DNA of 41,825 bases, from contig DYON01000002.1 of the NCBI GenBank assembly GCA_020720525.1, positions 1 through 41,825 on the forward strand. The letters are read 5' to 3'. Below, in pieces: positions 35,041 through 41,539 of the stretch. Numbering within the stretch: position 1 is the first letter of the stretch; each line of letters opens with the position of its first letter. The stretch comes from Acetofilamentum sp. (GTDB lineage Bacteria; Bacteroidota; Bacteroidia; Bacteroidales; DTU049). Below the pieces are notes generated by a model. The model was not told the origin of the DNA. It saw only the letters and a program-made list of their open reading frames with translations, and searched no databases. The translations under genes were made by a program, and so were the position numbers.

Positions 35041-35460
35041 CTACCGGTTATACTTGTGGTAGTCCCATTTGTTGTTTTGCTGCTCAATAAGCAAATCGTA
35101 AATGGTTAGCGAAAGACGAAGAAATATATCGAGTTTGTTGTTTTTAAGCCATTCGCGTGCTGGAGTAACACCTCTACAAGCATCGGCAAAAACAATATAA
35201 AAGGTAAGATTGTTTTTCTTCAGCCAAGCAATTGCAGCCTCTTCGGAGTCGATGGCATCGCTTAATACCCCCAATTCGGGCGAATTGTTTTCGAACAGCC
35301 ATTTAAGCGCTTTTTTATCGGCACGAACAGCATTCGAAAAAGCCGCAAGTTCGGGATAACCACTTTCCATTAAAACTTTAAAAAACTCCGACTTGCCACT
35401 TATAGCCTGCTCGAGAGCAAGTAAGATTTTTACATCGTAGTCGAAGAGCATTTTTGCCAT
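35041..35460 (-). CDS. Hypothetical protein of ~25-aa tandem repeats (A..WL..NN type)
   Basis: LAAFSNAVRADKKALKWLFENNSPE / LGVLSDAIDSEEAAIAWLKKNNLTF / YIVFADACRGVTPAREWLKNNKLDI, preceded by a diverged unit ILLALEQAISGKSEFFKVLMESGYPE. Start set at ATG 35460. Confidence 0.75.
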   Translation of the reverse strand: MAKMLFDYDVKILLALEQAISGKSEFFKVLMESGYPELAAFSNAVRADKKALKWLFENNSPELGVLSDAIDSEEAAIAWLKKNNLTFYIVFADACRGVTPAREWLKNNKLDIFLRLSLTIYDLLIEQQNNKWDYHKYNR

Positions 35461-35470
35461 AAACAAATAA

Positions 35471-36049
35471 TTACAATTGACCCCACTCAACTTCGGGCTG
35501 AGCAATACCTGCAACGCTAAGCATGCGCGAAACCAGAGGCGAAATGAGTTGTTGAATATTCTCGGGATGATGATAGTAAAACGGAGATGCAGGAAACACT
35601 ATTGCGCCAGCTTGAGTTGCGCGCGTCATGTTTTCGAGATGAACAAGGCTATATGGAGCTTCGCGCACCATCAAAACAAGGGGTTTGCGTTCTTTGAGCA
35701 TTACGTCGGCTGCACGAAGAATGAGATTGTTGGAATGGCCTGTTGCAATTCCAGCAAGGCTACCCATGCTACACGGAGCCACAAACATAACATTGAAGCC
35801 CGCAGAACCAGATGCAAGAGCCACAAACAAATCGTGGTTTTCGTAAAACATTATTTTGCCAGATTCGGGAATTGACCCAGCATTTTCAAAATCCCAAACA
35901 CTTTTCCCATTGTCGCTAAAAACCACTGCAATTTGAGTGATTGATTCAACCGCAAGCAATTGTTTAATCAGCGATGCTCCATACATGGAACCACTAGCTC
36001 CTGTAATGGCAACAACAACTTTCGATATAGGTTCAGAAATGATATTCAT
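35471..36049 (-). CDS. ubiX: UbiX family flavin prenyltransferase
   Basis: KVVVAITGASGSMYGASLIKQLL; FVAPCSMGSLAGIATGHSNNLILRAADVMLKERKPLVLMVREAPYSLVHLENM. Confidence 0.94.
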   Translation of the reverse strand: MNIISEPISKVVVAITGASGSMYGASLIKQLLAVESITQIAVVFSDNGKSVWDFENAGSIPESGKIMFYENHDLFVALASGSAGFNVMFVAPCSMGSLAGIATGHSNNLILRAADVMLKERKPLVLMVREAPYSLVHLENMTRATQAGAIVFPASPFYYHHPENIQQLISPLVSRMLSVAGIAQPEVEWGQL

Positions 36050-36666: not shown

Positions 36667-37029
36667 TTACAAACAAAATGCGTTTTCGATAAGTTCGATA
36701 TGCACATCGAAATCGGGCGATACCATTACCGAAACCACATCGAAACGAACATTTTGCTCAACATTATTTTGCAAGATAAATGCTTCGGCAGCACGAATCA
36801 TAGCGCTTTGTTTTCGCTGATCGATTGCCTGCCAAGGTTCTCCATAAGCCTGACTGGTTCGTGCTTTCACCTCAACAAAAACGACCCAATTGTTGTGCAG
36901 AGCCACAATATCAATTTCGTCTTTACCATTTCTCCAATTGCGGTATAAGATTTGGTAGCCAAGCCGTTCGATAAAGAGAGCAGCTTCGCTTTCACCAATT
37001 TTTCCTACTTTTACACTTTTATTGTCCAC
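36667..37029 (-). CDS. yraN: YraN/UPF0102 family nuclease-like protein
   Basis: KVGKIGESEAALFIERLGYQILYRNWRNGKDEIDIVALHNNWVVFVEVKARTSQAYGEPWQAIDQRKQ; probable GTG start near 37029. Confidence 0.88.
   Translation of the reverse strand: MDNKSVKVGKIGESEAALFIERLGYQILYRNWRNGKDEIDIVALHNNWVVFVEVKARTSQAYGEPWQAIDQRKQSAMIRAAEAFILQNNVEQNVRFDVVSVMVSPDFDVHIELIENAFCL
37006..37013 (+). promoter_or_regulatory. Putative -7 promoter element (TACTTTTA) for the TPR sensor gene, lying inside yraN
   Basis: One mismatch to TAnnTTTG, 19 nt before ATG 37033. Confidence 0.4.
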
Positions 37030-37032
37030 AAC

Positions 37033-39567
37033 ATGAATTTTAATCGACTTTTTTTTCTTCCTGTCGCAAAAATAGTCATTTTGCCATTGGTATTTCTTTT
37101 TCTTCAAACAACGGCAAGCGGCGACACAATTGACAGTCTCCGACAGCAATATAAACGTGCTCAAAACCAAGAAAAGGCAAAAATTTGCAATCAGCTTGCT
37201 TACGAATTTTTTGAATCCAATTTCGACAGCACTTTCCGATATGCTACATTGGCATTAGAGCATGCGCACCATCATCAACAATTCAAAGACGAAGCTCAGG
37301 CTTTGTTTAGTCTTGGATATTGCAGCGAAGTTGCCGAAGACTATTTGGGCGCACTCGATTTATACAACAAATCGTTTGAAGTTTATCTTCGCATCAACGA
37401 TAAAAACGGAATTGCAAGCGTTGCCAACTATATAGCTACTCTATATAAACATACGGGTCATTACGAAACAGCTGTTGAATATTACAACACTGCATTGAAG
37501 TACTATTTCGAATTGAAAGACCTCACAGGAGTAACATATACCCTTAACAATATTGGAGTGATGTATTTTTGGGCTGGGAACTTCGACAAAGCCTTCGATT
37601 CGTACAACAGAAGTCTTAAGTATTCGCAATTACTCAACGATTCGGCTTCGATTGGAAGCACACTCAACAACTTGGGATTGCTTGCTTTGGCTCAAAATGA
37701 AAACGAGAAAGCCATGGGACTTTTTGAGGAATCGCTAAGAATGAGCCAGCTAATCGAAGACCAAAGCGGCATTGCAACAGCATATTCCAACATTGCTGAT
37801 GTTTTCATTCGCCTTGGAAAATGGGAGGAGGCGATGAATTATCTCGATTTAGTTGAAATGATTAACCCAATAGAATTTAGCTCAACTATTCGCACCAATG
37901 CTCTTCTCGACAAAGCACGGGTTTATGAAAAGCTAAGTCGAATTTCAGAAGCATCGTTATATTACGAAAAAGCCATAAAGAGTGCCAAAGACAATCAACT
38001 GCGACCAATACTATCAGAAATATATTTCGATTACGCACAGCTGCTTTCAGCGCAAAATCAATTCGAACAGGCGACAGCTTATTACAAACAGTGCATTGTT
38101 TTGCGCGATTCTATGCACACCGACAAGCTAAACGAGCAATTGGCAAACACGCAATTCAGCATAGAATTGAACGAAAAAGGCAGAGAAAATCAGCAATTGA
38201 AACGACAAAACGAAATCAATTCGTTGCAAGTGGAAAAGTGGAAATGGATTATGTTAATTGCCATTATTTCCGCCATTATCATTCTGCTTTTGCTGTTGAT
38301 ACTGTTGGCAAAACTTCGAAATGTATCGACTCACCGCAAAGAACTAAAAAACAAAAACAACGAAATTGTTGGTTTGAACAAAGAACTAACATTGCTGCGC
38401 GATAAACTCAAAATACAAATTAATGAGCAAAATATTGAGCTAAAAGACGAAAAACAACGTCGGGTTTGGATGGAAAAAGACCTCGCCGAAATCAAAGAAG
38501 AAAAAGATAAGCAAATAATGGTATCTACGATGTTGCGAAACCACGTTGCAGAAGAGATTCAATCGTCGGTTGAGCTTATTCGCGATTATTCAAAACAGCT
38601 TTCGGCAGATGCTATAAATAAGGAGTCGAGAAATCTACTTTCGTTTATTTCGTTCAATGCAAGGCATATTCAGTTTTCGCTGCAAGAGTTAATGGTTCTT
38701 GATGGCGATAAAAATAAATGGAACACATTGCGCAGTGGAAGCTTTAGTTCGGCACAATTGATAGAAGAAACCGAAAACTATTTTCGCAGGTTAATTCCCG
38801 AAGCCAAACTATTCATATCGCGAAACACCGATTGTTTATCGGATTGCAAAGGCGACAAAAACATGACTGTTCGCTTGCTCAACGACGCCATTGTTTTGCT
38901 TTATCGAAACTCTTCGGACCGAACTGTTCAACTTACGACAAAGCAAGGCGAAAAAACCCTCAACATTGAAGTATCAGCTATTATTTCGCCACAAAATATT
39001 GCAGCATTGCTGAAATATTCTTCGGAAGTGCGCACCATTAGCCCCGAATCGGCAAATGATATGAGAAATTTCGACATAATAACACCATTGTATTATTTAC
39101 ACCAATTTTCAATCCTCACTGGCGTTCAGTATGAGTTTATCTCCGAAGACAATAGAATGCACATTCATTTCAAAATCGACGAAACTGAAATCACCAAGGG
39201 AAAGCAAAAAAACAAATACAATTTTGGTGTATCGGGCAACGACGATCCAATCAACATCATGTTGCTCAGCAAAAACCTCGAGGCATTTGGCTCGGTAAAT
39301 CTAATCAACATCAAAGAAAGCTCCCATCTTCAAAATAAAAACGAATTTGATGGTTTGTTTGTTGATGTGCCCACCGATCAAATAAAAGAATTTTGCGAAA
39401 CAATTCATTTGCTTAAAAAAGACAATCAAAAAACAATATTTGTTGCTATGTCGGCATACCTTTTACCCGAAGATCGTGACTGCCTCTTGAATGCTGGCTT
39501 CAATTTCTGCTTAGCAAAGCCCATCTCGCCCCAAGCTCTTGCACGATTATTCGAGAATTTGAAATAA
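37033..39567 (+). CDS. TPR-containing hybrid histidine-kinase-like membrane protein with degenerate kinase core and C-terminal receiver-like domain
   Basis: Signal peptide, TPRs (e.g. GVTYTLNNIGVMYFWAGNFDKAFDSYNRSLKYSQ), TM WKWIMLIAIISAIIILLLLLILLAKL, coiled coil, degenerate HisKA/HATPase-like region, C-terminal REC-like FDGLFVDVPTDQIKEF...TIFVAMSAYLLPEDRDCLLNAGFNFCLAKPISPQALARLF. Start set at ATG 37033. Confidence 0.8.
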   Translation: MNFNRLFFLPVAKIVILPLVFLFLQTTASGDTIDSLRQQYKRAQNQEKAKICNQLAYEFFESNFDSTFRYATLALEHAHHHQQFKDEAQALFSLGYCSEVAEDYLGALDLYNKSFEVYLRINDKNGIASVANYIATLYKHTGHYETAVEYYNTALKYYFELKDLTGVTYTLNNIGVMYFWAGNFDKAFDSYNRSLKYSQLLNDSASIGSTLNNLGLLALAQNENEKAMGLFEESLRMSQLIEDQSGIATAYSNIADVFIRLGKWEEAMNYLDLVEMINPIEFSSTIRTNALLDKARVYEKLSRISEASLYYEKAIKSAKDNQLRPILSEIYFDYAQLLSAQNQFEQATAYYKQCIVLRDSMHTDKLNEQLANTQFSIELNEKGRENQQLKRQNEINSLQVEKWKWIMLIAIISAIIILLLLLILLAKLRNVSTHRKELKNKNNEIVGLNKELTLLRDKLKIQINEQNIELKDEKQRRVWMEKDLAEIKEEKDKQIMVSTMLRNHVAEEIQSSVELIRDYSKQLSADAINKESRNLLSFISFNARHIQFSLQELMVLDGDKNKWNTLRSGSFSSAQLIEETENYFRRLIPEAKLFISRNTDCLSDCKGDKNMTVRLLNDAIVLLYRNSSDRTVQLTTKQGEKTLNIEVSAIISPQNIAALLKYSSEVRTISPESANDMRNFDIITPLYYLHQFSILTGVQYEFISEDNRMHIHFKIDETEITKGKQKNKYNFGVSGNDDPINIMLLSKNLEAFGSVNLINIKESSHLQNKNEFDGLFVDVPTDQIKEFCETIHLLKKDNQKTIFVAMSAYLLPEDRDCLLNAGFNFCLAKPISPQALARLFENLK

Positions 39568-39616
39568 AAAAAACAGGAATTGCTTCACAAAAAACACCAA
39601 CTAAATTCTCAAGGAA

Positions 39617-41539
39617 CTATTTCTTCACAAAAGAACCGCTGTAATTCCAGCCACTCCCTTCAACAACAACTTGATAGAGACCAGCAGCAAGCGCCGAAAT
39701 GTTGGTTGCTTGACCACTTAGAAAACTCGATTTAAGCACAACAGCTCCACGAGAGTCGTAAACTGTAAGTGCTAATTTGAGTTCAGCCGAACCGCAAGAA
39801 ATAGTTATTTGATTGGATGCTGGATTGGGGAAAATAGATATTTCGGGAACTATTTGCTCGCCAACACTTAAAATCATACTGTTGTTTGCCGATAAAAGCC
39901 AAAGAGTTGGGTCGAAGCGAACTGAATCGGGATACGCATGATATACAAAGCGGAATTCTTGTCCCGAAAAAGTACTATTGAAAACAACGGTGGTATCGAT
40001 ACCATTGTTCCAAAAAGTGATGGGAACGGGCATTTCGAAAAAGCTAACCGATGAATGACTTTGAGTTTGATTGATAACAACGCTAACTGTATCGTCTGAT
40101 AAATACGAAATTTGTGTCTGGTAGCTGGGATAGCCTTCTCCATACAACCAATCGGCGAAAAACTCGGTCAAATCGAGGCCAGATGAAGTTTCGAGATGAG
40201 CAATGAGATCAGGCGATTTAGCATAATCATATTTATTTGACGGATCGTTGAAATAATTTCGAATTCCCTGAAAAAACGCACTATCGCCAGTAACCCACCT
40301 CAACATGTGCAGTACGTATGCGCCTTTGTAGTAACTTAAACGCGAAGAAAAAACCCGACCGACATCGGTTGTATCGTAAACATATACCGAACCATCAGGT
40401 GCTGAAATAACTGTGTTGATTGCCATTTGCTTCCAAGGCATCCAGTACAAATCGGTGGGAAAAAACCTCTCGTAATTTAGAGCAGTGAAATAGGTTGCAA
40501 AACCTTCGTTGAGCCAGATATCGTGCCAGCTACCACAAGTAACTGCATCGCCAAACCATTGGTGAAGCAGTTCATGTGCCATAAGCTCATAGCCAAAACC
40601 AACCATAAAGCTCATCGTCTGATGCTCCATTCCTCCACCCCAGCCAAACTGAGCATGACCATATTTTTCGCTCATATATGGATAGGGAGCAATGATAGAG
40701 TCATAGAATTGCATCACAGGCGCAAGTGTTGGTGTTGATCCCTGCGCATTTAAAAGATCCTCTGGAAAAACATAATTCAACACCGGCAGAGAGCCTTGCG
40801 ATAAGGAAAAATTGTCTGTGTAAATGCTGTAATCGGTTACAGCAATAGCAATAAGGTATGCAGCAATAGGATAGCGATGTCTCCAATGAGCAGTTGTTGC
40901 TGCACCCACTGTTTCGGAAACCAACAATCCATTTGATGCAGCATGGTAACCGTTTGGATGTGTAACATAAACGTCGATTGAATCGATTTTGTCGCTCAGA
41001 TCGTTTTTGCAAGGCCACCATTCATAAGTACCATAAGGCTCCGACAAGGTCCATAAAACTGGCGTATTGCTAGTTCCATGAACACCTGTTACAAATGAAC
41101 CAAACGAACCAGTTGCTAAACTCGGCGTTCCGTGATAAAAAATGGTAATACTATCGAGTGTTCCAGCTATAATTGCTGGAAATCCTGTTATAGAAACAAC
41201 ATCAGTAACATGAACTGACATGGCAGGAGCTCCATGATACTTAACCGAATCGACCCACATGCCTACTTCGAGCGAAAAATCAAGCTGAGTTAAATTATTC
41301 TGAACAGCAACAAAATACGAGGTTACCGTGCCGCTGATGGCATTCAAAGCTGGGTCAACTGTCCAATTGAAACGATGGTACTTGAGATCGTATTCATGAC
41401 CAACAAATACGGGAGCTTTCATCATCTTCGATGCTCTAAATGCATCGTTGCGAGCAATCTCGTTGGTTGCGTTTATGTCTATTTGTGCCGAAAGCGACAA
41501 ACATAGAGCCGTAAAAAAGAAAAATATGGCAGTTTTCAT
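39617..41539 (-). CDS. M1 family aminopeptidase with T9SS C-terminal sorting domain
   Basis: GGMEHQTMSFMVGFGYELMAHELLHQWFGDAVTCGSWHDIWLNEGFATYF (HExxH-18-E). C-terminus ISIFPNPASNQITISCG...LTVYDSRGAVVLKSS...ISALAAGLYQVVVEGSGWNYSGSFVKK. Confidence 0.94.
   Translation of the reverse strand: MKTAIFFFFTALCLSLSAQIDINATNEIARNDAFRASKMMKAPVFVGHEYDLKYHRFNWTVDPALNAISGTVTSYFVAVQNNLTQLDFSLEVGMWVDSVKYHGAPAMSVHVTDVVSITGFPAIIAGTLDSITIFYHGTPSLATGSFGSFVTGVHGTSNTPVLWTLSEPYGTYEWWPCKNDLSDKIDSIDVYVTHPNGYHAASNGLLVSETVGAATTAHWRHRYPIAAYLIAIAVTDYSIYTDNFSLSQGSLPVLNYVFPEDLLNAQGSTPTLAPVMQFYDSIIAPYPYMSEKYGHAQFGWGGGMEHQTMSFMVGFGYELMAHELLHQWFGDAVTCGSWHDIWLNEGFATYFTALNYERFFPTDLYWMPWKQMAINTVISAPDGSVYVYDTTDVGRVFSSRLSYYKGAYVLHMLRWVTGDSAFFQGIRNYFNDPSNKYDYAKSPDLIAHLETSSGLDLTEFFADWLYGEGYPSYQTQISYLSDDTVSVVINQTQSHSSVSFFEMPVPITFWNNGIDTTVVFNSTFSGQEFRFVYHAYPDSVRFDPTLWLLSANNSMILSVGEQIVPEISIFPNPASNQITISCGSAELKLALTVYDSRGAVVLKSSFLSGQATNISALAAGLYQVVVEGSGWNYSGSFVKK

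Follow-up and report, generated by a model that had tools for sequence, protein, structure and literature searches.

A probable TPR hybrid histidine pseudokinase in Acetofilamentum sp.

Introduction

What may a sensor protein do when it has the layout of a hybrid histidine kinase and seems to have lost the catalytic residues of its kinase core? The question is raised by a gene at positions 37033..39567 (+) of the 41,825-nucleotide stretch of DNA analyzed here (hereafter, the window), from Acetofilamentum sp., an uncultured member of the Bacteroidota. Its predicted product of 844 amino acids had been read, in an earlier note made from the sequence alone, as a pseudo-kinase scaffold, and this reading is supported by the sequence comparisons described below. 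We consider it moderately probable that the gene encodes a TPR hybrid histidine pseudokinase, in which a dead core acts by contact with a partner and the receiver is phosphorylated in trans.

Gene and domain organization

The reading frame is open over its whole length. The start was placed at the ATG at 37033, and a TTG at 36952 represents a possible longer start. Full-length orthologues were found at two loci, L010/L077 (71% identity) and L011/L078 (35%), referred to below as L010 and L011. The order of modules proposed earlier was borne out: a signal peptide, a TPR ectodomain, a transmembrane helix, a coiled coil, degenerate DHp and CA domains and a receiver. The signal peptide (residues 1-30, 37033..37122) was assigned by eye from the sequence MNFNRLFFLPVAKIVILPLVFLFLQTTA. 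The ectodomain (about residues 31-358, 37123..38106) consists of tandem TPRs, as indicated by a match to Pfam TPR_12 (E 3.7e-32), seven TPR_2 stretches and regular helix pairs with pLDDT values of 70-91 in the predicted structure. The transmembrane helix (residues 406-426, 38248..38310) corresponds to a hydrophobic stretch, IMLIAIISAIIILLLLLILLA, that the orthologues conserve, and is followed by a cytoplasmic coiled-coil linker (residues 427-470, 38311..38442), which forms a long helix in the model and can be aligned to the corresponding linker in canonical relatives.

The pseudo-DHp domain (residues 471-558, 38443..38706) was delimited by HMMER, MAFFT and profile-profile alignments together with the model, the pseudo-CA (Bergerat-like) domain (residues 559-722, 38707..39198) by its CA-type order of secondary structure and by Foldseek matches to HK853, DivL and RetS, and the receiver (residues 723-844, 39199..39564) by matches to SLN1 and other hybrid-kinase receivers (E 3.5e-7) and by the beta/alpha order in the model. 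When the window protein alone was compared with Pfam, neither a HisKA nor a HATPase match was obtained over the ∼370 C-terminal residues, and the match to Response_reg was sub-threshold (E 0.018, falling to 0.0058 when just the C-terminal part was scanned). The AlphaFold models are of moderate confidence, the kinase core included (mean pLDDT 67.5 and 70.1), and show two DHp helices, CA-type secondary structure and a receiver. Using Foldseek, the best matches of the C-terminal model include ShkA, HK853, DivL and RetS, while TPR proteins rank first for the full-length model.

Descent from hybrid histidine kinases

The relationship of the core to histidine kinases was established at the level of the orthologous group. 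When the C-terminal part of each of the three orthologues was scanned singly against Pfam, one matched HisKA (E 5.6e-5), and its H-box region in the profile-profile alignment identifies it as L011. A C-terminal profile of the three rows detects HK853 (E 6e-7) as well as the SLN1 receiver, and a full-length profile search of the order retrieved TPR hybrid kinases of identical layout, with E-values down to 2.7e-84. Profile-profile alignment (hhalign) with ten canonical relatives gave a probability of 99.2 over 341 columns; the profile of these relatives in turn detects the kinase part of L011 (E 1.4e-19) and the receiver of the window protein (E 2.8e-12). For the kinase part alone, the profile of the three orthologues scored 73.9 against the canonical relatives, versus 21.8 for the best of 100 shuffles, while a profile of the window protein and its close orthologue only scored 18.2, within the shuffle range. 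Both the assignment as a kinase and the register of the window protein thus depend on L011, with which its DHp shares 30% identity, the basis of that register. By sequence, the kinase core of the window protein is unrecognizable on its own, and the reliance of the register on L011 is the main weakness of the analysis.

Taken together, the HisKA match of L011, the HK853 match, the shuffles and the Foldseek results argue for a DHp-CA fold and common descent. We favor, with reasonable though not high confidence, an origin of the gene from a canonical hybrid kinase of the layout TPR-TM-DHp-CA-receiver whose catalytic residues decayed. L011, in which HisKA is still detectable and the broken G1 box recognizable, appears to have decayed less far. 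In a protein tree the three orthologues constitute a long branch of their own (100/100), with an unresolved position among the canonical kinases.

Catalytic residues of the kinase core

In the H-box, AEEIQSS of the window protein takes the place of SHEIRTP, and the position of the phospho-accepting His is occupied by Glu507 (38551..38553, +), which is Glu in L010 and Gly in L011. The underlying H-box alignment, made earlier by eye, was obtained again with HMMER (against HK853), with MAFFT (14 relatives) and with profile-profile alignment. A nearby candidate, His504 (in RNHVAEE), lies outside the H-box and is replaced by Asn in L011. A role of Glu507 as a phosphomimic was rejected, in view of the Gly in L011. 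The adjacent Glu of the HE motif, Glu508, is invariant in the three orthologues, as is Ser511, which stands at the T of HExxT.

MAFFT and hhalign agree in aligning DAIVLLYRNS with the N-box DIIDNSIKYT, so that Leu622 (38896..38898, +; Leu in L010, Phe in L011) occupies the position of the Asn. The HMMER register against HK853 would place Asp618 there; this candidate was discarded, since MAFFT, hhalign and the start of the helix in the model favor Leu622. The G1 box is degenerate (38971..39012, +) and reads VSAIISPQNIAALL, the replacement given in the earlier note to within one residue: KDTGIGID corresponds to about AIISPQNIA, MAFFT and hhalign being one residue apart, and in L011 SKGTDSYVK stands against KDTGIGIDK. 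The place expected for G1 and the lid is occupied in the model by a helix (residues 653-665). In the G2 box (39073..39099, +; MAFFT), DIITPLYYL is found versus GAGLGLPLA. The same note had seen neither an N-box nor a GLGL motif; the G2 glycines are indeed gone, but the dead N-box helix can still be recognized (DKNMTVRLLNDAIVLLY). Neither DxGxG nor GxGxG is present, the glycines of both G-boxes are lost, and the core thus lacks the catalytic residues of HisKA and HATPase_c.

The loss of the H, N, G1 and G2 residues is common to all three orthologues, as the earlier note had asked to be checked, while the closest full-length TPR hybrids of the order retain them. Among related frames from loci of the own genome and, more widely, of the order and the class, the His is kept in 85 of the 87 frames readable at this position (one gene, L040/L085, being counted twice), the N-box Asn and G1 in all readable ones, and G2 in all but one. 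The His is replaced by Gln in L083 and by Tyr in the second gene of L023, which also has Asp in place of the first G2 Gly. On the basis of these alignments, the protein is predicted, with a fair degree of confidence, to be unable to bind ATP in the normal manner or to autophosphorylate.

The receiver domain

The three phosphorylation residues proposed earlier for the receiver are invariant in the three orthologues, and in the model they lie at the strand ends where such residues are expected: the phospho-acceptor Asp778 (39364..39366, +) at the end of beta3 (774-778), Ser807 at the Ser/Thr position (39451..39453, +) at the end of beta4 (802-807), and Lys829 (39517..39519, +) just after beta5 (825-828). 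The fold of PF00072 and its Asp/Ser/Lys set are thus present, though the Pfam score is below the gathering cut-off. The acidic pair had been regarded as lacking; the beta1-alpha1 loop is altered and one residue longer, but acidic residues remain (GNDD in the window protein, DNDD in L010 and ESYD in L011, versus EDD in relatives). The altered loop may weaken the binding of Mg2+. Although the receiver is the fastest-evolving part of the protein (61% identity to L010), the invariance of these three residues suggests that phosphorylation still matters.

Genomic setting and selection

The gene is present in three of the 12 genomes of the family: that of the window, G009 (HGW-Bacteroidetes-6, contig PHDB01000006, carrying L010) and G001 (a Bacteroidales MAG, JAFGWG010000040, carrying L011). 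PorT-like and UbiX genes are found near both orthologues; in G009 both flanks are the neighbors seen in the window, and in G001 the PorT-like barrel and UbiX adjoin the gene. In two genomes of the same genus, G008 and G010, the pseudokinase gene is missing and the M1 peptidase, UPF0102, barrel and UbiX genes directly adjoin one another; it is thus an accessory gene. A single-sequence search of 84,980 genomes retrieved no relatives, and a search with the three-row orthologue profile yielded nothing beyond the two known orthologues.

In the window (36667-41539), the gene is flanked on one side by UPF0102 (YraN) and on the other by an M1 peptidase that carries a T9SS sorting tail. Also within the window (35041-35514, −) is a gene for a protein of ∼140-157 residues with no Pfam match; homologues occur beside UbiX in L073 (7572-7988), L074 (8203-8634) and L076 (7993-8424), and the protein represents a conserved family of unknown function.

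Comparison of the window gene with that of G009 gave a pN/pS of 0.22 overall, with 0.17 for the TPRs, 0.15 for the pseudo-DHp, 0.27 for the CA domain and 0.34 for the receiver; these values are uncorrected, synonymous sites being near saturation and NG86/YN00 rates mostly not computable. The pseudo-DHp is also the region most identical to L010 (84%), while the CA domain shares 20% identity with L011. Since pN/pS is low, and lowest in the pseudo-DHp, the gene is a maintained one rather than one in decay, and the dead DHp is the most constrained part of the protein. The dead state is old, because the dead residues are common to two genera.

Proposed function and alternative explanations

The catalytic residues are lost, yet the gene is under selection, and the protein therefore probably acts by touching partner proteins. 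The periplasmic TPR array would bind a ligand or a protein, and the signal would run via the transmembrane helix and the coiled coil to the pseudo-DHp helices, which may modulate a partner histidine kinase or regulator through contact. The receiver (Asp778, Ser807, Lys829) would take phosphoryl groups from the partner, as RetS does from GacS; by analogy, its phosphorylation in trans is probable. That a dead kinase can act via a paralogue is known from ChrS (PMC9491836). A more specific version, in which the wholly non-catalytic core serves purely as an interaction platform and the TPR array has been rewired through it to tune another kinase in trans, as an allosteric subunit or a phosphate sink, is put forward tentatively, at somewhat less than even odds. 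No partner kinase is encoded beside the gene, and none was singled out genome-wide; the own genome contains 11 HisKA and ∼24 receiver matches, none of which adjoins it. Nor did the hybrid kinases of G000, G009 and G001 point to one: with ∼32-44% identity over the core, they do not clearly pair as orthologues of one another.

Signalling could also run in reverse, as in DivL, which is among the structural matches, has no kinase activity and senses DivK~P (PMC4211667): the pseudo-core would sense a phosphorylated response regulator, and its own receiver would be structural or weakly phosphorylated. Such a role would accord with the conservation of the pseudo-DHp, the receiver-docking surface of kinases, and with a receiver that is the least conserved part and has an altered acidic loop. 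It appears rather unlikely, however, given that Asp778, Ser807 and Lys829 are invariant despite this divergence. A divergent but active kinase or phosphatase, using another residue or an unrecognized nucleotide site, is very improbable. The invariant Glu508 and Ser511 might permit some activity like that of transmitter phosphatases, but there is no conserved His at or near the H-box in the DHp helix, the N-box Asn is Leu, Leu and Phe in the three proteins, and the glycine motifs are all gone. Least credible of all is the view of the gene as a decaying relic that is being lost: although the gene has no adjacent partner, is absent from two genomes that keep the same neighbors and has a CA domain that diverged fast in L011, its frames are open for 843-844 codons in all three genomes, its pN/pS is low and its dead residues are shared across genera.

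Comparison with known systems

The canonical TPR hybrid kinases of the order (L079-L086, L091 and L105), in which this architecture is common, share the domain order of the window protein; they keep H, N, G1 and G2, the His being lost only in L083, whereas the window protein lacks all four. In L083 (1489-4041, −) the H-box reads NISQEIRTP with the other catalytic residues intact, and the sibling L084 keeps the His; this reflects a sequencing error or else an initial loss that occurred independently. At L079 (4117-5382, +), L081 (219-1502, −) and L082 (4090-5346, +), a second gene for a soluble DHp-CA-receiver protein of ∼420 residues directly follows the canonical TPR hybrid; together they form a conserved two-kinase unit, and no such second kinase accompanies the window gene. 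At L023 (1492-2712, −), a soluble hybrid kinase directly downstream of a canonical hybrid kinase carries Tyr in place of the His (LLHNLSYDLRIPLNG), as in DivL. The TPR sensor domain of FimS of Porphyromonas (NCBIfam NF053520) matches residues 14-314 of the window protein (E 2.4e-19), but the match, of 69 bits versus a cut-off of 600, is limited to the TPR half of the profile, with none in the kinase.

Searches of the open-access literature turned up no TPR hybrid pseudokinase described from Bacteroidota. Histidine pseudokinases as such are already known. RetS of Pseudomonas aeruginosa, like the window protein, is a membrane hybrid with a degenerate HATPase that lacks G-boxes; GacS phosphorylates its receiver, and its core is inhibitory (PMC5992135). 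In RetS the H-box is kept, as is the HExxT phosphatase motif, and there are two receivers, whereas the window protein has no His, a TPR ectodomain and a single receiver. DivL of Caulobacter, which was matched both by Foldseek and weakly by sequence, resembles it in having a histidine kinase fold without the phospho-acceptor His. It differs in its Tyr at that position, its PAS sensors and its retention of weak ATP binding, and it is not known to carry a receiver. DivL and RetS each keep part of the catalytic machinery, while the window protein has lost the His together with both halves of the ATP site; the fuller loss of motifs and the TPR ectodomain set it apart, as does a pseudo-DHp that is the best-conserved region between close relatives although its catalytic residues are lost. 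With intact relatives and a half-decayed orthologue at hand, the path from kinase to pseudokinase can be read.
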